The position numbers and the translations under genes were made by a program. From positions 1 to 33,402 of the forward strand of contig JAIXWE010000005.1 in the NCBI GenBank assembly GCA_027482195.1: a stretch of DNA of 33,402 bases, in the 5' to 3' direction. Origin of the DNA: Alphaproteobacteria bacterium (GTDB lineage: Bacteria; Pseudomonadota; Alphaproteobacteria; Micavibrionales; Micavibrionaceae). How positions within the stretch are numbered: position 1 is the first letter of the stretch; each line of letters begins with the position of its first letter. Positions 3,020-28,598 of this stretch are shown here, in pieces. Under the pieces are notes generated by a model. It did no database searches. It saw nothing but the letters and a program-made list of their open reading frames with translations, and had not been told where the DNA came from.

Positions 3020-3673
3020 TCACATTACAAGTGGTTTGTACGGGCGCAACAATGTATCCACGCCAAGCGGTATGCGCTTCATATCCGTTGAAGTAACTTC
3101 ACTGCGATTATTGTACAAATGCGTAAACCAAAGCAATGCAGCTTGTTTAACAACCGGGTATGTCGCAAACGGTGAAGCCGCAAGCGTATATGTAACGATC
3201 ACAGGTGATGTCATTTGCGGATTAATGCTTGTAGGCAAATCAGAGCAAATGACCTTGCGCCCGGTTGGATCGTAATAATAAGCCGATGGCGATACCGTTG
3301 TCAGCACCGTTGGCGTTTCATCGTTGTAGTATTTGACCGAATCAATGGTCACGCCGCCCTGTGATGTTTCAGGCAAATCTAGCGACAATGGCGAACCGTA
3401 CAAAGCCGAAACACCGTAATACGATTTGTATTGCACCGACACAATTGGCGCACCAAGATAATCCTCGATGGCCATGCGGATTGCTAGTTCAAGCGAAGTC
3501 AAATAGGTATCCTGACTTGTATCAGAATACAAATTCAACTGTTCCCGAATTTCGGATAACGTCAACCAGCCCGTTGAAACATTACGATTTGTCTGTTCAA
3601 ACCAATCGTAATTAAACGGGTTGCGTGTTGGCGCAAGTTGAACAAATCCTAACCCTGTCTCTTGAACTGGCAT
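3020..3673 (-). CDS. Head-tail connector (gp6 / phiE125 gp8-like adaptor)
   Basis: A 217-residue protein (MPVQETGLGFVQLAP...) with the pattern of the phiE125 gp8/HK97 gp6 adaptor family: an N-terminal helix set (WLTLSEIREQLNL, then a second helix ending IEDYLGAP), a central beta region with repeated Tyr (DSVKYYNDE, AYYYDPTGR), a Pro/Val helix (PVVKQAALLWFTHLYNNR) and the terminal signature IPLGVDTLLRPYKPLVM. This ring binds the portal underside. It starts 2 bases after the stop of capsid copy 2. Confidence 0.8.
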   Translation of the reverse strand: MPVQETGLGFVQLAPTRNPFNYDWFEQTNRNVSTGWLTLSEIREQLNLYSDTSQDTYLTSLELAIRMAIEDYLGAPIVSVQYKSYYGVSALYGSPLSLDLPETSQGGVTIDSVKYYNDETPTVLTTVSPSAYYYDPTGRKVICSDLPTSINPQMTSPVIVTYTLAASPFATYPVVKQAALLWFTHLYNNRSEVTSTDMKRIPLGVDTLLRPYKPLVM

Positions 3674-3675
3674 GA

Positions 3676-4716
3676 TTAAGTCGCAATCAAACGAACACCG
3701 GCAAATGGATCGCGCACAGTCGATACCATGCGCTTTTCAGCAAACATTGTTACAAAGCCGGGCGCAGTCTGTTCCATCGCCTGAACAGTCATTTCCTCAA
3801 CATCGGCAATCGTCAGGAATTTAGCCCAATCAGCAAGGTAAATAGAAATGCTGCCGGTTGCAGTCCATGCATCCAAATACGGATTTGGGATCACAGGCCA
3901 ACCAAATACATTGACCACCGCACCGCCATTGTTCGTGCCGGTTTCCATAAAGTACGGAACATTGCCAGCCGATACCGCTTTGGTCAAAACATCGATTGCC
4001 GATGGATGCATCATCCATGCGGTTGTTGGCGAGTTCCAATATTGACCGGGCAGCGCAAGACGCATTTCCGACAATGTAGATTTGCTCAGACCGGCAACCG
4101 TTGCGCCGACTGTGGCAATAGTATGCCGACCATTGGTAATCGCTGTGCCGCTTGATCCAAACGCCGATACAGCACCAGCAGCGCCGGGATAACTATTCAG
4201 ACCGCGCAGACCATAAATGCCGCCTGTGCTGGTTGTAGTGCTTCCTGCCTGATCGTTATTTAAGCCCATTGACGCGCCTTCAAGTTGCGCGAATTCCATC
4301 ATCAAATCTTCAATGAGTTCGTTATTCAGGCCATTAACGTCTGACAATACCGCTGTGCGGATTGGCATCTGTGCGGTAATCACTCGCGTTGGCAATTGCC
4401 AAATCGATGTGTTGATATTAGGTGATCCGCTGTTGGGCGTGAATACATAGCCCCACGGGTTTGTGCTGTTTGCCGCATTACCTGTCTTTGCGACAAATTG
4501 AACGTCCGACATATTTGCGGTTTTGATTTGACGCGCACCCAAACGATATGGGTTGGCATATCGAAATGCTGCAAATACATCATCAAAGAAAGTTTGACCA
4601 CCAACACCAGAACCGCTGCCGGTAAGAGCAGAAGCCTCGCGCAAATCAATGGTGATTCTATCGCCAGTTTCTAGCGTCTGTTTGATACCGGTTAGGATTT
4701 TTTCGTTGGCTTTCAT
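3676..4716 (-). CDS. Second major capsid protein paralogue, lacking the delta (scaffold) domain
   Basis: A 346-residue HK97-fold capsid protein starting MKANEKILTGIKQ. It aligns with the upstream capsid protein from EASALTG onward: shared blocks include AKTGNA, IWQL, PIRTA, NNDQA, YGLRGL/NGLRGL and C-terminal EKR...PFAGVR. The upstream paralogue has about 105 residues before EASALTG; this one has only about 30, so the coiled-coil delta domain is essentially missing. I chose the ATG at 4716 because GGAA lies just upstream; alternatives are 4725 and 4758. It may build part of the shell (for example vertices) or be a variant shell protein. An intrinsic terminator separates it from copy 1. Confidence 0.88.
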   Translation of the reverse strand: MKANEKILTGIKQTLETGDRITIDLREASALTGSGSGVGGQTFFDDVFAAFRYANPYRLGARQIKTANMSDVQFVAKTGNAANSTNPWGYVFTPNSGSPNINTSIWQLPTRVITAQMPIRTAVLSDVNGLNNELIEDLMMEFAQLEGASMGLNNDQAGSTTTSTGGIYGLRGLNSYPGAAGAVSAFGSSGTAITNGRHTIATVGATVAGLSKSTLSEMRLALPGQYWNSPTTAWMMHPSAIDVLTKAVSAGNVPYFMETGTNNGGAVVNVFGWPVIPNPYLDAWTATGSISIYLADWAKFLTIADVEEMTVQAMEQTAPGFVTMFAEKRMVSTVRDPFAGVRLIAT

Positions 4717-4738
4717 TTTTTCCATTCCCAAATTTAGC

Positions 4739-4768
4739 AAAAAACCCCGGCAGCACACGCCACCGGGG
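4739..4768 (-). terminator. Intrinsic terminator between the two capsid genes
   Basis: On the minus strand: CCCCGG, a 12-base loop, CCGGGG, then six U. The perfect 6-bp G/C stem and U-tract make a good rho-independent terminator 11 bases after the stop of capsid copy 1. It would favour copy 1 transcripts and lower expression of capsid copy 2 and genes beyond unless antiterminated. Confidence 0.88.
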
Positions 4769-4779
4769 AAGCCGCATCA

Positions 4780-6123
4780 TTAGGTTGACGTGCCAGTAGA
4801 ACGATAACGAACACCAGCAAACGGGTTGACAACCGAAGTTGCCAAACGCTTTTCACCAAAGAACGTGATGAAGCCGGGGAGGGTTTGATCGTAACGGCGC
4901 ATGACCATCGACAGACGATCAACAGTGGTATGGAAACGCGACCAATCTGCAAAGTACATTGGATACAGGCTATTAGTACCAGCCGATCCAGTGGTCAACT
5001 GCGAAGGCGTATCGCAATACTTGTTGACGATAACGTCAAAGCCCATCAGCGTACCGACAATGCCATCATCACGCGACAAACCGTCAATGTAGATCGGGCG
5101 CTTCTGATCATCAACCAGACCGCGAATCTGCTGAAGCAGTACAGGGTTAATCATAAACTTAGCATCGGGAGTCCAGTATTCCTGTGGCAGCGAATAGACA
5201 AAATTCACAACGTCTTTGTATGTGATATTACCCGCACCGACCGTATTGGCGTTGGTGGTGAGCTGGTCATAAGTAGCAAGCGAATGCAGACCAGTAGTGC
5301 TACCAGTACCGCTATTGCCAAAAGCGGCAGTAGTAACAGAACCGCCAGCGTAAGTTGCAGCAGAACCAGCGTACTGATCCAGACCGCGCAGACCGTTTGT
5401 GCCACCGTATGGGTTGGAAACAGATTGAGCAGCTTGGTCATTGTTCTGCACCATTGAGAGTGCTTCAGACTGAGAGAATTCCAGCAGCATATCCGAAACA
5501 ACATTTGCTTCCAGACCGTCAATGTCATCCAGCGCAGCGGTACGGATTGGGAACTGGACGTTAATATCTTGCAGAACCAATTGCCAAATGGTTGTATCTT
5601 CAGTTGTGGTTGCACCGTTGTTCTGGATGGTGTAACCCCATGCAGCACCAGCGTTGCCGGTTTTTGCACGGAACTGATACGAAGAACCATCGGTTGCAAC
5701 TTGACGCGAAATTTGACGCATTGGGTTTGCAAGACGCAGCGGAGCAAACACTGGATCATAGGCAGTGCGACCACCCTGATTGTTACCGCCGCCTGTCAAT
5801 GCCGATGCTTCCTTCATGTATGCATCATATTCAGCAGCATCTTCAAACAGTTTCAGTTCCTTTTCCATGCGGGAATTGGATTTGTAGAACTGTGCAAGCG
5901 ATTCACGAACACGGCGATTAACGTCAACCTGAATGCCTTTGTTTGCGCGAACAATCTCAGGTGCGCGAATCTGTGCAACCTTTGCTTCCAGTGCTGCGAC
6001 CTTTTCGGCAAAAGAAACTTCAGCAGCAGCAACTGCCTCAGACACTTTTTCAGAAACGATTGCTTCGGTTTTTTCTTGCAGGTTCGATTCAATGGAATCG
6101 AGTTTTTCAATAATTTTGTCCAT
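4780..6123 (-). CDS. Major capsid protein, HK97 fold, with N-terminal scaffold domain
   Basis: A 447-residue protein. Residues 1 to about 60 (MDKIIEKLDSIESNLQ..., then repeated Ala/Glu/Lys heptads) predict a coiled coil, the delta domain that scaffolds assembly in HK97-type phages. The shell domain starts near EASALTGGG (about residue 106), the probable protease cleavage area, and ends GFITFFGEKR...NPFAGVRYRS, a typical HK97 capsid C-terminus. It follows the prohead protease and is followed by a strong terminator and a paralogous capsid gene. Confidence 0.95.
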   Translation of the reverse strand: MDKIIEKLDSIESNLQEKTEAIVSEKVSEAVAAAEVSFAEKVAALEAKVAQIRAPEIVRANKGIQVDVNRRVRESLAQFYKSNSRMEKELKLFEDAAEYDAYMKEASALTGGGNNQGGRTAYDPVFAPLRLANPMRQISRQVATDGSSYQFRAKTGNAGAAWGYTIQNNGATTTEDTTIWQLVLQDINVQFPIRTAALDDIDGLEANVVSDMLLEFSQSEALSMVQNNDQAAQSVSNPYGGTNGLRGLDQYAGSAATYAGGSVTTAAFGNSGTGSTTGLHSLATYDQLTTNANTVGAGNITYKDVVNFVYSLPQEYWTPDAKFMINPVLLQQIRGLVDDQKRPIYIDGLSRDDGIVGTLMGFDVIVNKYCDTPSQLTTGSAGTNSLYPMYFADWSRFHTTVDRLSMVMRRYDQTLPGFITFFGEKRLATSVVNPFAGVRYRSTGTST

Positions 6124-6135
6124 GATAGTCCTAAG

Positions 6136-6927
6136 TTATTTAAGTCGGGATTCCAGAGCCTTCAGCAACTCGCGCTGCTCAAGAGCGACCAGAAGTTCAT
6201 CAGCCGCACCCGATGTTGCCTCTCGCGTATCGGAGTTCGGTTCGGCAGTTTCGGGTTTTGCATCTCGCTTGCCCATTGCCTTGCCAAATACGGATGCGGC
6301 CTTTGTCGCATCCTTTTTTGAAAAGCCCACTTCACGCAGTGCTTTTTCAAATACTTTCAAATCAGCAGAACCATCTTCGCGGAAATATTCCAGCTTGCTG
6401 ATATTAGCCATTGGATTGTTTGGTTGCATCACGATTGACACTTCTGCCAATCCACCTTTTGTGATGCTGAAATAACCTTCCTCATCCATTGAATCAACTT
6501 GATTGCCTTCAGCATCAACCATGCACCATTCATCAGCGTATGCGCCGACAGAAACGCCGCCGACCATCATCGGAGATTCCTTCATGATGGTGTACAGATC
6601 ACGCCCGGTTGTGGTGTTGGTATAAATCATGCCGCGACCGATCATGCCTTCATCGGTGAATTCAAATTCATCCCATTGACCGACAGGCATTGATTGATCG
6701 TTGTGTTGAAAATACATCGGCAATGGTCTGCCAGCAGTGGCAAACTCTTTTGCCCATGCTTGAAATGGGGCAGCCTGATAATTGAATCTGCGACCGTCTG
6801 CGCCTTCACGCGCACCCCAAGTGGTAAGCATTGCTTCAATCTTGCCGCACATTTCATCGGCAGATTCATCGGCAGAGCGACCCAATGCAACTTGCGATTC
6901 GAAAAAAAACGTCACGTTTTTAGTCAT
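6136..6927 (-). CDS. Prohead maturation protease (HK97 gp4-like)
   Basis: A 263-residue protein (MTKNVTFFFESQVAL...). The herpesvirus/HK97-type serine protease signature is visible: His75 in PMYFQHNDQSMPVG, Ser126 in MVGGVSVGAY, and the downstream strand GLAEVSIVMQPNNPMA. The C-terminal third is charged and low in complexity (KAMGKRDAKPE..., ending ELLKALESRLK), like the self-cleaved tail of such proteases. It cleaves the capsid delta domain during maturation. The start overlaps the stop of the small basic ORF upstream (CATGACTAA) and an AAAAAGGTG site precedes it. Confidence 0.92.
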   Translation of the reverse strand: MTKNVTFFFESQVALGRSADESADEMCGKIEAMLTTWGAREGADGRRFNYQAAPFQAWAKEFATAGRPLPMYFQHNDQSMPVGQWDEFEFTDEGMIGRGMIYTNTTTGRDLYTIMKESPMMVGGVSVGAYADEWCMVDAEGNQVDSMDEEGYFSITKGGLAEVSIVMQPNNPMANISKLEYFREDGSADLKVFEKALREVGFSKKDATKAASVFGKAMGKRDAKPETAEPNSDTREATSGAADELLVALEQRELLKALESRLK

Positions 6928-7060
6928 GAAAATTCACCTTTTTCTGTTGCATTCCATTGGTTTGCAATGGTTTAATTTTGCGCCTACTAGCAGCCTGTTT
7001 TATTTTATCTGCGACCTGCTGTTGCTGTTGTCGCTTGCGATTTAGGCTAGGCTTTTCCAT
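6920..7060 (-). CDS. Small basic glutamine-rich protein between portal and protease
   Basis: A 46-residue frame starting MEKPSLNRKRQQQQQ and ending QQKKVNFHD. It overlaps the portal 3' end by 14 bases and the protease start by 8 bases, so it is packed between the two as a translationally coupled gene would be. It is strongly basic with a Q run. No function recognised; a nucleic-acid or scaffold binding role would be a guess. It may also be a non-coding connecting frame. Confidence 0.5.
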   Translation of the reverse strand: MEKPSLNRKRQQQQQVADKIKQAASRRKIKPLQTNGMQQKKVNFHD

Positions 7061-8453
7061 TTTGCCCCGTCTTGCCAACTGAGCTTGTGTTGCCGCCGCC
7101 GCCTGTATCTTGTGGTGAAGAACCTGCAATCGGTTCTTGTTTGCCGCCTTTATTAACTAGCGTTTTGGCAATCGTATCATCAATCTCGCACAAACCCAAA
7201 TATTTTCTTGCTTCATTCGGAGTCAAAATTCCAGCATTAACACCAGCGACAGAATAATTCATCTGGTCAAGTGGCGCACCCTTCAGGAAATTATCTGTCT
7301 GAAATTGTATGTATAAGTTTGGGTAACCTTGCAGCAAACTCACTTTTAGCTTTTGCTCTACATTGGTCAACAGCGGAGCCATTGTGCTTTTGTAGAATTC
7401 ATCCAGCATTGTTTGCGTGTTATTGAATTTTGATTCGCCCACACTAATCATTTGTGGTGGTACGCCAAACACACCGCAGATTCGTTTCATGGTCTGTTCT
7501 TTCAGCGCAGCAAGATCAGCATCTTGAATCGAAAGCATATCGACCGGCATATACTTCATGCCATTGTCCAGCAGCATACCTTGACCGGGTTTGGATGGAT
7601 CAGTCGGGCGCGATCCTGTCAGTTGCGACCATCCTTCCTTTAGTCGGGCAGCAATCTCTTTATATTTAGAATCAGGAATCACCTGATCGGTAACAAACAA
7701 GCCCGATGGTTTCGCGCCATTCTGCATGACATAGTTTGCGTAAAGATCAATATCCTGATCCAGACCAACCAATTCTGTCAGCAATATGCCTTTGTTCCAA
7801 CCGCCCGAACCTTGCCAACCCATTTCCATCATGTGCATAACCTGCCAATAATCTAATGGCGCATCTTTGGAAAATCCATAACTTGGCGTTGCAAGTCGAT
7901 ACATTGGGTATCGAGTTTCGGTTAGCTGTGTGGTAATTAGCGTTGCGTCCAGGATATACATTTCCAATGGCGTTTGATCTGATTTGTTTTGATCTTTGCG
8001 CCAAAACACTGTGTAGCATTCGCCAGCCATATCTAGCCACATCGAAAACTGATACCAGAATTCGTATTGCGATTGGAAGTTATTAGGATTGGCAAGCAAG
8101 TTATAAACTTGTCTCGCCTTAATTTTGTCACGCGCTCCGATAGATGGATCATGACAAGCATCAACCAATTGATCGTTGGCGTTGTAGGCCATTACTTTTA
8201 CAGGCAGTTGCGACAATGCTCTAGCCTTGACTGCAAGGCATGACATAACGGTTGAATTGCGCGACAACGTAGACATATCCACTGTTCGCCCTGCTTGCGT
8301 AGCAGAACTAGTCGTGACATACAGCATTTGCTGGAATGCGGATTGCGATCCGATATTCCGCAGCAAATTGTTGCCCAAAGTTGTCTGGCCGAAAAGTGTA
8401 TTGCTTTCGGATTTTGCGACAGACTTGCGTTTAAATATGTCTAGCATTCCCAT
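7047..8453 (-). CDS. Portal protein (HK97 gp3 family)
   Basis: A 468-residue protein (MGMLDIFKRKSV...) showing the HK97-type portal pattern: N-terminal MLDIFKRK, the region STVMSCLAVKARALSQLPVK (first helical core), YANYVMQNGAKPSGLF and the segment MKRICGVFGVPPQMIS... typical of the crown/stem region. The C-terminus is disordered and Gly/Gln rich. It forms the dodecameric ring through which DNA enters and leaves. A strong site (TGAGGAAAAAATT) precedes the ATG; the gene lies between large terminase and protease as usual. Confidence 0.94.
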   Translation of the reverse strand: MGMLDIFKRKSVAKSESNTLFGQTTLGNNLLRNIGSQSAFQQMLYVTTSSATQAGRTVDMSTLSRNSTVMSCLAVKARALSQLPVKVMAYNANDQLVDACHDPSIGARDKIKARQVYNLLANPNNFQSQYEFWYQFSMWLDMAGECYTVFWRKDQNKSDQTPLEMYILDATLITTQLTETRYPMYRLATPSYGFSKDAPLDYWQVMHMMEMGWQGSGGWNKGILLTELVGLDQDIDLYANYVMQNGAKPSGLFVTDQVIPDSKYKEIAARLKEGWSQLTGSRPTDPSKPGQGMLLDNGMKYMPVDMLSIQDADLAALKEQTMKRICGVFGVPPQMISVGESKFNNTQTMLDEFYKSTMAPLLTNVEQKLKVSLLQGYPNLYIQFQTDNFLKGAPLDQMNYSVAGVNAGILTPNEARKYLGLCEIDDTIAKTLVNKGGKQEPIAGSSPQDTGGGGNTSSVGKTGQNGKA

Positions 8454-8495: not shown

Positions 8496-10157
8496 TTAAA
8501 AAACTCTAAAGCCAAAATTATCATTTGATACTGGATGATCTAATGAGCAATGAATCGCTATAACTAAAGCAATCACTCCATCCACTTTTGCAGATTTGTC
8601 TGCCTCATTCTTGCGTAATTTTATATTTCCTTGAACGTCCTCATAGACTTCAATATTTGAAATTTGCCATCCTAAAAATGGGTTGCCATCATGTTTAATA
8701 TTTTTTGAAAGAATTAATTTTTCTAAATGTTTAGATGGATTGCTTAATACTGCCATTCCTTGGCCAACTTTTGTAAGCGGCAATCCTTGGTCATTTAATC
8801 TTGCCACCAAACTTGCGGCATTATAACTATCGTATCCTAATGTTTTAACATCATATTTTTTTGCTTGGCTTATTATGTAATCGGATATTTCCCGATCATC
8901 CATGACGTTGCCTTGCGTCAAATGCAATATGTTTGAATCGCAAGCATTGCGGAATATATCCTGATAATGTTGCGGCACATGGTTTAATCCTTCTTCGGGC
9001 AGAAAGAATTTCCATTCCGCAAAATAGTCATCTTCAGCATACCGCTTCAGCGTACATACAGCATTTAAATCGCGAGTTGCCGCTAAGTCAAAACCAATAA
9101 AGACCGCTTCCGGTTCGCGCTCATCTTTGGGCACAGAGCATTCATCCCAGTGTGACCGATCAATCCATGCGGAATTTGCACTTACAAAAACATTGAGCGT
9201 CTTGCAAAGAAACTCATTTAGCGTTGCAGGTTTATGTTTTGCTTCCTCTGCCCGTTGCTGAATTGCTTCCTCAAAAACCGTGATGCCATGCATCGGGTTT
9301 GCCTTTGCCCATACCGCTGCATCTTTCCAATCGTCTTGCGTATCCAGCCCATATAGCAGCCCAAACCATCGGGGATTATCTGTCGCTTCGCCCGATAGCA
9401 TGGTTTGCATCATGAGCAAATCTTCATGAAACTTCGTATCCTTCGTAAAACTTGCCGTAGTGATATATATCCTAAGCGGATTTTTACGCGCCACCATACC
9501 GGAATGTAGAACCTCAATTGAATTCCTATCAATGATTTGCGCCGCCTCATCAATGATGGCGCATGATGGATTCATGCCATCGCCTGTTTTCTTTGTATCC
9601 CGCGACAATGCTTTAAACATCGATTGCGAATCGCCAATCTTTGTAATGTGATTCTTTTGTACGTTGTACAAGTTTTGCACTTCAGTCGGCATAGATTCAA
9701 TCAGACCTTTTGCCGATGTGAATACAATGCTTGCCTGATCCCGGCTAGTTGCCAGCGTATAGACTTCAGAACCTTTTTCGCCGAACAATAATTCGTATAA
9801 ACCAATCACAGCAATCAGCGTTGACTTGCCAGCCTTACGGGGAATGAACACGATCACATCATTGACCATGCGTTTGCCTTTGTCTTTTTTAGACCAAAAG
9901 CCATAGATGCCGCAGATCAAAAGTATCTGGAATGGTTCAAGGATTACAGGTTGCCCGGCATATACGCCCTTTGCATGGCGCATGATTGAAGCAAATTTGA
10001 GGAAATGCTCTACCGCTTCAGGATGGAATTCCCATTCCCATTCGCGGTTTTCGAGTTGATTGAGGAATCTTTGACAGGCAAGCAAAACATTGCGGCAAAC
10101 AAGTATCTCGCCCTTCACTACTTGATTGGCATAAATAACCCCATCCTGCCATTTCAT
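8496..10157 (-). CDS. Terminase large subunit (Terminase_1 / HK97 gp2-like)
   Basis: A 553-residue protein. ATPase: Walker A-like FIPRKAGKST near residues 104-113 and Walker B CAIIDEA near 199-205. Nuclease (RNase H-like) domain: GFDLAATRDLNAV (acidic residue near 357) and the late DGVIALVIAI segment. It cuts and translocates DNA into the prohead. I chose the ATG at 10157, which overlaps the small-subunit stop (ATGA), over a TTG four codons upstream. Confidence 0.95.
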   Translation of the reverse strand: MKWQDGVIYANQVVKGEILVCRNVLLACQRFLNQLENREWEWEFHPEAVEHFLKFASIMRHAKGVYAGQPVILEPFQILLICGIYGFWSKKDKGKRMVNDVIVFIPRKAGKSTLIAVIGLYELLFGEKGSEVYTLATSRDQASIVFTSAKGLIESMPTEVQNLYNVQKNHITKIGDSQSMFKALSRDTKKTGDGMNPSCAIIDEAAQIIDRNSIEVLHSGMVARKNPLRIYITTASFTKDTKFHEDLLMMQTMLSGEATDNPRWFGLLYGLDTQDDWKDAAVWAKANPMHGITVFEEAIQQRAEEAKHKPATLNEFLCKTLNVFVSANSAWIDRSHWDECSVPKDEREPEAVFIGFDLAATRDLNAVCTLKRYAEDDYFAEWKFFLPEEGLNHVPQHYQDIFRNACDSNILHLTQGNVMDDREISDYIISQAKKYDVKTLGYDSYNAASLVARLNDQGLPLTKVGQGMAVLSNPSKHLEKLILSKNIKHDGNPFLGWQISNIEVYEDVQGNIKLRKNEADKSAKVDGVIALVIAIHCSLDHPVSNDNFGFRVF

Positions 10158-10630
10158 TGCGGTTGCCAACCCTTCAGGAAGTCGGCCAATGGTGAAGCAT
10201 CTTCCAGCTTGTTTGCAGCAAGCCGTGACTTAGGCGTAAGGCCAAGTTCGTTCATTAACTTGACGCAATTATCCATCGCTTTGTTTGCAATGGTGATGTA
10301 CGGGTTTGGCGCAAGTGTTTTGCCACCGTTCATTTCGATCACCAGCGGCATAGTGTCTTGCTGTTTACGCGCATCAACATAAACTTGCATCTGGTCTGCC
10401 AACATTGTCAATGTGTGCCGATCCTGCTTTGAGCCAATGCCGTAAACGTCAAACAAATAATCGGCAGTTTCTTTGACAAACTTTTCCCGGTTAAAACCAT
10501 CAGGATTGTCTGCCCATTCAGCAAACGGGATTCTCGCTTTTATTTTTTCGGGCAGCATCATGCCGGGATTCTTCCCGACACTGCCATGCACTGAATGCAC
10601 TTCAGGCGGTAACTTGTGTGATAAACCCAT
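10154..10630 (-). CDS. Terminase small subunit (P27-like)
   Basis: A 158-residue protein from the ATG at 10630 (MGLSHKLPPEVHSVHG...), preceded by AAGGAAAATAAT. An upstream GTG at 10666 is possible but less likely. The order (N-terminal phage-conserved G-x-x-P-K-x-P region, helical middle with DMQVYVDARKQ-type helix, C-terminal SRLAANKL) matches P27-family small terminases, which recognise the packaging site. It lies directly before the large subunit and directly after a 200-bp non-coding region rich in repeats and DnaA boxes. Confidence 0.82.
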   Translation of the reverse strand: MGLSHKLPPEVHSVHGSVGKNPGMMLPEKIKARIPFAEWADNPDGFNREKFVKETADYLFDVYGIGSKQDRHTLTMLADQMQVYVDARKQQDTMPLVIEMNGGKTLAPNPYITIANKAMDNCVKLMNELGLTPKSRLAANKLEDASPLADFLKGWQPQ

Positions 10631-11820: not shown

Positions 11821-12240
11821 TTATTTAAAACGTCTGAGTTTGTACATAGTTGTGTCGATCAGATCAGCAATCGCATCAACCAAATTTTGTATTTCTGCAT
11901 CTTCGCCAAACAATGCGCGACCTTCTGTTAGCTCTTGATTCAAATATTCTATATATGCAAGCGGAGCCATATCTTCGTATGATTCCATTTCATTTGGAAA
12001 CTTTGCAAGGATCACATTGTTCTTGCCCTGATAGGCTTCGACTACGGCGTCAACCAGTTCGGGAATCTCGCTATAAAACTCGCCCAATGCAACGTGCGCC
12101 GCATAGGATTCTGTCTGCCAATGCATGATGTGCGCGACCGTTGCCGAATGCAGCAAGTCCATGACCAATTCCACCAGCGTTTCATCGCCGTTGTCTTCGC
12201 CCTTGACCGCCATGCCGTTTTTAATTGAAAAGGTAACCAT
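11821..12240 (-). CDS. Ferritin-like / DUF5856-type phage protein
   Basis: A 139-residue helical protein. The segment LLHSATVAHIMHWQTESYAAHVALGEFY, followed by DAVVEAYQGKN, is the hallmark of the DUF5856 phage family, which resembles Dps/ferritin four-helix proteins (helix with H-x-x-H-W and E residues, then E-x-x-QGK). Function in phages is not established; possible roles are metal binding or DNA protection. Assigned from remembered motif pattern, so moderate certainty. Confidence 0.65.
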   Translation of the reverse strand: MVTFSIKNGMAVKGEDNGDETLVELVMDLLHSATVAHIMHWQTESYAAHVALGEFYSEIPELVDAVVEAYQGKNNVILAKFPNEMESYEDMAPLAYIEYLNQELTEGRALFGEDAEIQNLVDAIADLIDTTMYKLRRFK

Positions 12241-27800: not shown

Positions 27801-28152
27801 AAGTAAATGTATCTGGTGTGCCACTCGTTTCTGTATTTGTTACTTCAGATAATGCAACAACATAATAAATATTTTGATTATCTGAAGTAATGCTCATATC
27901 AACTAGCGCACCGCCGATATAAGCAGAGCCATAAACAACAGGTAATTTATTATCACCAGCAGGAGGAACCGTTACTCTGCTTCCAGGATTTTCAGTAGCA
28001 GTTGAATTTATTGTTGGTTCATTTGGTGTAAATACGCGAGAAATTACTGAGCTTGCAACTATGTTAATTGCAAACGCCGTTACATACGCAGCAGTTCCCG
28101 CACTAATAATCCCTGCGCTAACAAGATAGTTTGCAATTATTGTACCGGGCAT
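24835..28152 (-). CDS. Tail tip attachment protein (J-like host specificity protein)
   Basis: An 1105-residue protein. N-terminal region includes hydrophobic segment IISAGTAAYVTAFAINIVASSVISRVF and then RVTVPPAGDNKLPVVYGSAYIGG, the opening of tip-attachment hubs (lambda J/phage-tail_3-like). The middle has a long beta-rich domain (NQEINLNFVNNNIRAQLLANRFL; LEAGDIVTLTNANYGW), followed by FN3-like sections and a repetitive C-terminal end (ATAGNSVYRYRALG; YTFSYDVNAFELYG). It is the likely receptor-contact hub, placed before the fibre. Start overlaps the GNAT stop (TAATG). Confidence 0.82.
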   Translation of the reverse strand: MPGTIIANYLVSAGIISAGTAAYVTAFAINIVASSVISRVFTPNEPTINSTATENPGSRVTVPPAGDNKLPVVYGSAYIGGALVDMSITSDNQNIYYVVALSEVTNTETSGTPDTFTFGKIYYAGKRVIFDGTDLTKVISLLDESTGLYDTTVNGKINFYLYRNGSANPANTTLTANQVMSAAGLVYTWSPAKQMTNCVFAIVKLQYSVTANIRGLDSMRFQITNSRYLPGDCFLDYFSSSRYGAAILLSNINTASLTALNVYSDQNVVYTNYSGGSDLIKRFRFDGVVDTQNSIMSNIQLMANSCDCLVKYNEITGQWGVIVQQPTYTVAMALDDSNVISGLTVSPVDISNSFNIAEVKFPDGTQQDSFASATFDLSVINPSLMYPNEPVNKQEINLNFVNNNIRAQLLANRFLESCREDLQVQLKINYVGLQLEAGDIVTLTNANYGWVAKLFRISKVVEDFDNDGSITATLSLMEFNPAVFDDANVTEFTPAPNTGLGDPLTFGTIPTPTIGGLYPNAANPSFQVNVTTSSAGIVQYAEIWYSAFSNPTSAQRIFAGTTEVQSNGNPYNPSTAMPPVTLAGIPAGNWYFFSRMVNQLGSSDFSSASALLQWRPTTFTYDNQYLIVAYGDNLSGSGLNASPIGKNYYGLYNSSSSSFSTNPADYTWYLAQPTFGTANKLCYINRTGRTFSFGTAPASYAAATAAYVPASTFDPSLWSALPDGTNYIDLDIRTGQLLTTGTTTIGGGEISITNNPNGTLVGSLAQFLDFGGSPTYTGSGANLTIDIYGRVVGLVAPDGFYYTSDEFVATAGQTVFTPTARGAGYINGQDLVFRNGALLVPTSDYTETTSAVTMLNACAVGDVVTIISFRSTSTAAYYANMDIAYSSGSGTNTLTYSNLPSQLIYAGDVLTFANTGTPTQYTVSSINYATKQIVFTTTFTATAGNSVYRYRALGATYRSFSRWDVSLSAAASYSPTEFQIVSGAEVFFLNGTVVNDQDYDLVSNTVNNFPSTATGNFTIIQFAHNNFGVPNGSPSLISTYTVNGQSVYTFSYDVNAFELYGNGCLYVPGAGNDYITATGTYALNPTPNNNTTVLSQQTFSRTGAA

Positions 28153-28598
28153 TATCTATACCATGTTTCTTCAAGTTTATAAAAACCAAACTTGTTATAT
28201 TTTAAGTCTGGTGAATTGACCATTTTAGTCATCGTATAAAATTGTATTTTGCCCTGCTTTACCATTGCATTGCATTCTGACACATAGGCAGTAATCAATC
28301 TATAAGCCGCTGTGCCGCCTCGATATTCTGGATCAACCCAATATGCCACTTCACTACATTGCCGCGCTTTAGGATTCCATATATTCGGTATGATGGCAGC
28401 AATCAACATACCTATAATCACATCATCTTTTTCAGCCAAAAATATAACGCCTGATCCTGCCAATAATTCAGACAATAATTGAATTATATATTCCTCATCA
28501 TCGGCATATTTCAAAACATCTAATGGCGCAGCATCTCTATATTGTTTTAAAAGTTTAATAATTTCTGGAACATCAAACTTATTTGCTTGTCTTATCAT
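28152..28598 (-). CDS. GNAT family N-acetyltransferase in the tail module
   Basis: A 148-residue protein (MIRQANKFDVPEIIKLLKQ...). GNAT features: N-terminal strand-helix, VIFLAEKDDVIIGMLIAAI, and motif A YWVDPEYRGGTAAYRLITAY (acetyl-CoA pyrophosphate loop R-G-G-T-A), ending KFGFYKLEETWYR. It transfers acetyl from acetyl-CoA to an amine; the target is unknown. Inserted between tail-tip genes with tight spacing (1 and 9 bases), so it travels with the tail module. Confidence 0.88.
   Translation of the reverse strand: MIRQANKFDVPEIIKLLKQYRDAAPLDVLKYADDEEYIIQLLSELLAGSGVIFLAEKDDVIIGMLIAAIIPNIWNPKARQCSEVAYWVDPEYRGGTAAYRLITAYVSECNAMVKQGKIQFYTMTKMVNSPDLKYNKFGFYKLEETWYR

Follow-up and report, generated by a model that had tools for sequence, protein, structure and literature searches.

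The window analysed here, a 33,402-base contig with tailed-phage genes from a bacterial metagenome-assembled genome, encodes two tandem paralogous capsid proteins of the HK97 fold, of which only the first (copy 1) carries an N-terminal delta domain. We consider it probable, at roughly 60%, that the second protein (copy 2) is a minor shell protein which forms the pentamers, with copy 1 forming the hexamers and providing the scaffold. Both genes are kept throughout a large group of environmental phages, in which copy 2 is exchanged as a discrete cassette.

Two capsid genes in one head module

Both capsid genes lie on the minus strand within a head-gene order of TerS-like protein, TerL, portal, S78 protease, copy 1, copy 2 and head-tail adaptor, followed by tail genes (Table 1). 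The start codon of copy 2 is the ATG at 4716. Both proteins matched the Pfam family PF05065 (Phage_capsid) above its gathering score, and a BLASTP comparison of the two gave 38% identity over 371 columns with E 1e-73, a value at which the resemblance is not due to chance. At 70 alignment positions the same fixed residue is found in both copies, and copy-specific indels are fixed throughout 91 pairs. The shared motif EASALTG starts at residue 105 in copy 1 and at residue 27 in copy 2, and the C-termini of copies 1 and 2 are formed by NPFAGVR/DPFAGVR and a few further residues. The first-pass annotation had described two tandem HK97-fold capsid genes with common blocks and a shared PFAGVR ending, and a scaffold domain in copy 1 only. 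Family matches, adjacency and alignment bear out this description, with 26 residues before EASALTG in copy 2 (about 30 in that annotation) against 104 in copy 1.

Table 1. Positions of the capsid genes, their parts and the neighboring head genes in the window
Feature	Position	Strand	Evidence
Head-tail adaptor, 2 bases past copy 2	3020-3673	-	phrog_442 1.3e-14
Copy 2, second HK97-fold capsid protein, 346 aa, without delta domain	3676-4716	-	PF05065 1.2e-14; HK97-fold model
Copy 2 residues 1-26, short conserved N-terminal segment (helix 3-17), ends before EASALTG	4639-4716	-	
Intrinsic terminator in the copy 1/copy 2 gap, CCCCGGTGGC-GTGT-GCTGCCGGGG then TTTTTT	4745-4768	-	
Copy 1, major capsid protein, 447 aa, with N-terminal delta domain	4780-6123	-	PF05065 4.5e-27; phrog_10 major head protein
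Copy 1 residues 1-104, delta (scaffold) domain, helix 2-51	5812-6123	-	AlphaFold block pLDDT 63-75; no counterpart in copy 2
Prohead protease (S78 family)	6136-6927	-	PF04586 2.8e-8
Portal protein	7047-8453	-	PF04860 3.3e-58
Terminase large subunit	8496-10169	-	PF20441, PF03354

The AlphaFold model of copy 1 was poor overall (pLDDT 50) and too weak for a structure search, and the fold of this protein was judged by sequence. Its N-terminal residues 2-51 are predicted as one long helix, as expected for a delta domain. The model of copy 2 (pLDDT 65) has the HK97 fold; its best solved match is the RcGTA capsid (Z 20.2, 235 residues, 3.8 A), followed by the EcCI2 satellite capsid at Z 19.3, while HK97 was matched at a Z of about 15. 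Monomer models of such low confidence (pLDDT 65 and 50) cannot tell pentamer from hexamer contacts.

Copy 1, with its long helical N-terminus and the S78 protease gene adjacent to it, may be a self-scaffolding capsid protein of the HK97 type, from which the protease would remove the delta domain; such a domain is absent from copy 2. Before EAS, an invariant K/R for cleavage was expected but not found, K/R being present in 59/91 copy 1 and 80/91 copy 2 proteins; the short N-terminus of copy 2 may nevertheless be cleaved. These 26 residues are probably more than a relic, since they are conserved and a helix is predicted in them; non-synonymous differences are also rarer here than in the remainder of the protein.

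The tandem pair in environmental relatives

Scans of IMG/VR yielded hundreds of relatives, and 156 distinct complete tandem pairs were extracted from the loci kept. The relatives are environmental (metagenomic) contigs and one cultured phage, Methylophilaceae phage P19250A. The group is widespread and of freshwater, a habitat which is read from P19250A and the titles of a few metagenome-assembled genomes. All pairs have the order copy 1, copy 2; copy 1 comprises 437-462 aa, copy 2 usually about 337-353 aa, and almost every copy 2 protein has its EAS motif near residue 27. Copy 1 alone was not seen in any contig with enough sequence downstream of it. Loci with copy 1 but no complete copy 2 are contigs that break off at most about 190 bases past the stop codon of copy 1, except for L107, in which copy 2 is present but split into two frames by a frameshift, a deletion or an assembly error. 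In two loci a homing-endonuclease-like frame (PHROG 314, apparently GIY-YIG) lies between copy 1 and copy 2 (L037:2250-2897 and L050:6061-6706).

P19250A (KX815270) is the only close relative among phage records. Its genes 5 and 6 are the same tandem pair in the same order, with copy 1 about 60% and copy 2 55% identical to the window. In the record, gene 5 is annotated as GTA capsid protein and gene 6 as hypothetical, so that the second capsid protein is unrecognised there. Phage Venkman was described as a relative of P19250A (PMC8163748); it was rejected as a relative with the same module, since its head genes are of another type, in which a single capsid gene is present and the scaffold is separate, and it gave no match.

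Further genes of the window were recorded alongside. Two tandem paralogous major tail (tube-like) proteins with long blocks in common are encoded on the minus strand (1187-1705 and 1720-2214) and are followed by a small hairpin and T run (1179-1166), whereas P19250A and the environmental locus L155 apparently have a single such gene. A gene for a starvation-inducible (Dps-like) protein of PHROG 858 is located near the terminase region (11821-12240, minus), and the tail module includes a GNAT acetyltransferase (28152-28598, minus), with a similar gene at the equivalent place in L155.

A tree built from 91 pairs (91 + 91 sequences) separates the two copies cleanly into reciprocally monophyletic groups, so the pair goes back to one old duplication, since which the copies would have had fixed, different roles. 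A single-capsid close relative that could serve as pre-duplication outgroup was not found; in a tree rooted with the very distant Bcep176 and RHph_X2_25, support was 100 for copy 2 and moderate (66) for copy 1. Copy 2 looks like the derived copy because of its longer branches (1.12 versus 0.73). Both copies are under strong purifying selection: by the Nei-Gojobori method, the median dN/dS of 280 pairs with dS below 1 was 0.096 in copy 1 and 0.115 in copy 2.

These data largely refute the explanation that copy 2 is a redundant duplicate, kept for dosage, or a decaying gene. Tandem duplication is its obvious origin, but the copies are only about 40% identical, form separate clades, are selected against change, and a single split copy (L107) was met among all loci. 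Relaxed selection or broken copy 2 genes in relatives, which had been set beforehand as speaking against a function of copy 2, were looked for in the sequences, and copy 2 proved to be maintained. That both copies are used, as the first-pass annotation had argued, is thus well supported, since the family has the pair throughout, in intact form, and purifying selection acts on both genes.

The exchange of copy 2 became visible in pairwise identities. Those of portal, protease, copy 1 and adaptor correlate with each other at 0.78-0.92, those of copy 2 with these proteins at 0.52-0.63. Between two loci, L120 and L131, identity amounts to 98-100% directly past copy 2 and along most of copy 1, yet falls to 51-81% inside copy 2; the steep drop starts at the end of copy 1 and stops at the stop codon of copy 2. 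The same replacement pattern was found in L101/L102 and L091/L095. Whole copy 2 alleles are thus swapped as a discrete cassette on almost identical backbones, with the partner copy 1 staying in place. This hints at a possible selection for different copy 2 alleles.

Some copy 2 proteins carry extra domains; copy 1 lengths gave no sign of such additions. In L159, L160, L162, L163 and L164 the copy 2 frame is extended by about 103 N-terminal residues, which in L159 match PHROG family 2859 (function unknown); in these loci an internal ATG with AAGGA upstream could serve as start of a short form. Copy 2 of L229 and of L232 is longer by roughly 60-75 residues, inserted at the position of the E-loop tip, and the insertion of L229 resembles parts of phage tail fibre profiles.

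The gap between the two genes contains the strongest terminator-like site of the scanned region in the window, a 10-pair stem followed by six T. Among the relatives, a GC-rich hairpin follows copy 1 in 139/141 distinct gaps, represented by 89 different hairpin sequences, compared with 0.9 expected from mononucleotide shuffling. A T tail follows the hairpin in 88/91 loci of the first set and, by the same rule, less often (46/69) in a more distant set. Under a strict rule, a sense terminator is located right after copy 1 in 82/91 loci, and only one other was detected in the 11 kb around it (-5 to +6 kb). Because of this conserved element, transcription is expected to drop past copy 1, with copy 2 reliant on read-through. 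The first-pass annotation had listed a variant under lower expression among its options for copy 2; the conserved terminator supports this at the level of transcription, and from it we infer the lower protein level. The terminator fits copy 2 as a minor component, but is by itself no proof of low amounts, as it also precedes all tail genes including that of the abundant tail tube.

Proposed role of copy 2 and alternatives

In the model which we favour, copy 1 would be the major shell protein, whose delta domain scaffolds assembly and which builds the hexamers. Copy 2 would be a dedicated minor shell protein that arose from the old duplication, is devoid of the scaffold domain and is made in smaller amounts because of the terminator after copy 1. 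It would be present in the virion and located at the vertices, where homopentamers of copy 2 at the eleven non-portal positions would join the shell laid out by copy 1. If T=7, as assumed from the 38.7-kb genome of P19250A, about 55 pentamer subunits face 360 hexamer subunits. This vertex role is favoured by the precedents discussed below, by how short the N-terminus of copy 2 is and by the freedom with which this protein is exchanged; against it counts that in almost all HK97-fold capsids both capsomers are built from one protein.

The main rival is that copy 2 co-assembles with copy 1 in the same capsomers and borrows the delta domains of its neighbours, which would result in shells of variable composition. 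The complete shell fold of copy 2 and the 70 positions common to both copies would agree with this arrangement, and a two-component HK97-fold encapsulin does form random hetero-pentamers (PMC12407261). We regard it as possible but rather unlikely, considering that copy-specific indels are fixed across the 91 pairs and that alleles about 35% different take the place of the entire copy 2 next to copy 1 proteins that are still 93-98% identical. If copy 2 were mixed with copy 1 in each capsomer, many contacts would have to fit at each swap, whereas a swap is less demanding for a protein whose contacts are chiefly with its own kind, as in homopentamers, because fewer contacts must match. The exchange is therefore moderate evidence for separate capsomers.

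Somewhat less probable is another special place for copy 2, be it around the portal vertex, in a subset of hexamers or in setting the size or shape of the capsid. An HK97-fold protein reserved for the portal-proximal ring is not known to us; on the other hand, the copy 2 gene directly precedes that of the head-tail adaptor, RcGTA adjusts its shell subunits around the portal (PMC7296036) and the satellite protein Ccm shifts capsid shape (PMC8569155). A function outside the virion, as assembly chaperone, decoy against capsid-sensing host defences or regulator, would be in line with the extra N-terminal domain of some copy 2 proteins, and allelic exchange would suit an arms race. We nevertheless consider it improbable, as copy 2 keeps its fold, the PFAGVR motif at its C-terminus and its shell residues under a dN/dS of 0.11, and no precedent is known to us.

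Precedents and significance

The assignment of copy 2 to the vertices has its best-known parallel in T4 gp23 and gp24, likewise two HK97-fold paralogues encoded by tandem genes, the second without the long N-terminal domain. T4 is a large myovirus with a separate scaffold, and its two proteins share about 17-20% identity, in contrast to 38% between the copies described here, for which no scaffold gene was seen besides the delta domain. Gp23 forms hexamers and gp24 pentamers, and 65 and 10 N-terminal residues, respectively, are removed (PMC9958956); T4 has been stated to be the only virus in which two HK97-fold proteins have distinct roles (PMC12407261). A sequence relation of our pair to gp23/gp24 was not found: the only matches were PF05065 and phrog_10/phrog_15928, and none was to a T4-type family. 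As no relation was detected, the pair was not filed in the T4 gp24 family.

In SaPIbov5, the protein Ccm is a homologue of the phi12 CP and occurs only in pentamers, with CP forming the hexamers (PMC8569155). Ccm is a satellite product that redirects capsid size and possesses its own delta domain (87 residues), whereas here both proteins are encoded by the phage itself and copy 2 is devoid of a delta domain. A Ccm-type satellite protein was ruled out for copy 2, the contig having its own terminase, portal, protease and tail genes. The Family 2B encapsulin of Streptomyces lydicus combines two HK97-fold paralogues in one shell, as proposed here, but is non-viral and forms random mixed pentamers (PMC12407261). 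The closest solved structure to both copies by profile, and to copy 2 also by fold, is the RcGTA major capsid protein Rcc01687; in RcGTA, unlike in our proposal, one major capsid protein forms pentamers and hexamers (PMC7296036). Beyond these cited cases, titles and abstracts of the open-access literature revealed no other tailed phage with two capsid paralogues.

In our estimation the chances are even that the pair represents an independent invention of the T4-type division into hexamer and pentamer proteins by siphoviruses, in which only the hexamer protein has the scaffold domain, while phages trade the vertex protein among themselves as a module, possibly under selective pressure from host or environment on the vertices. 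If true, this would be a second case of such a division, unrelated to T4 and found in small phages with many environmental relatives. With about 40% identity between the copies, the determinants of pentamer versus hexamer formation would become readable from many paired sequences, and the absence of the scaffold domain from one copy lets one ask whether pentamers need a scaffold at all. The exchange of copy 2 cassettes raises the new question of what selects for different vertices.
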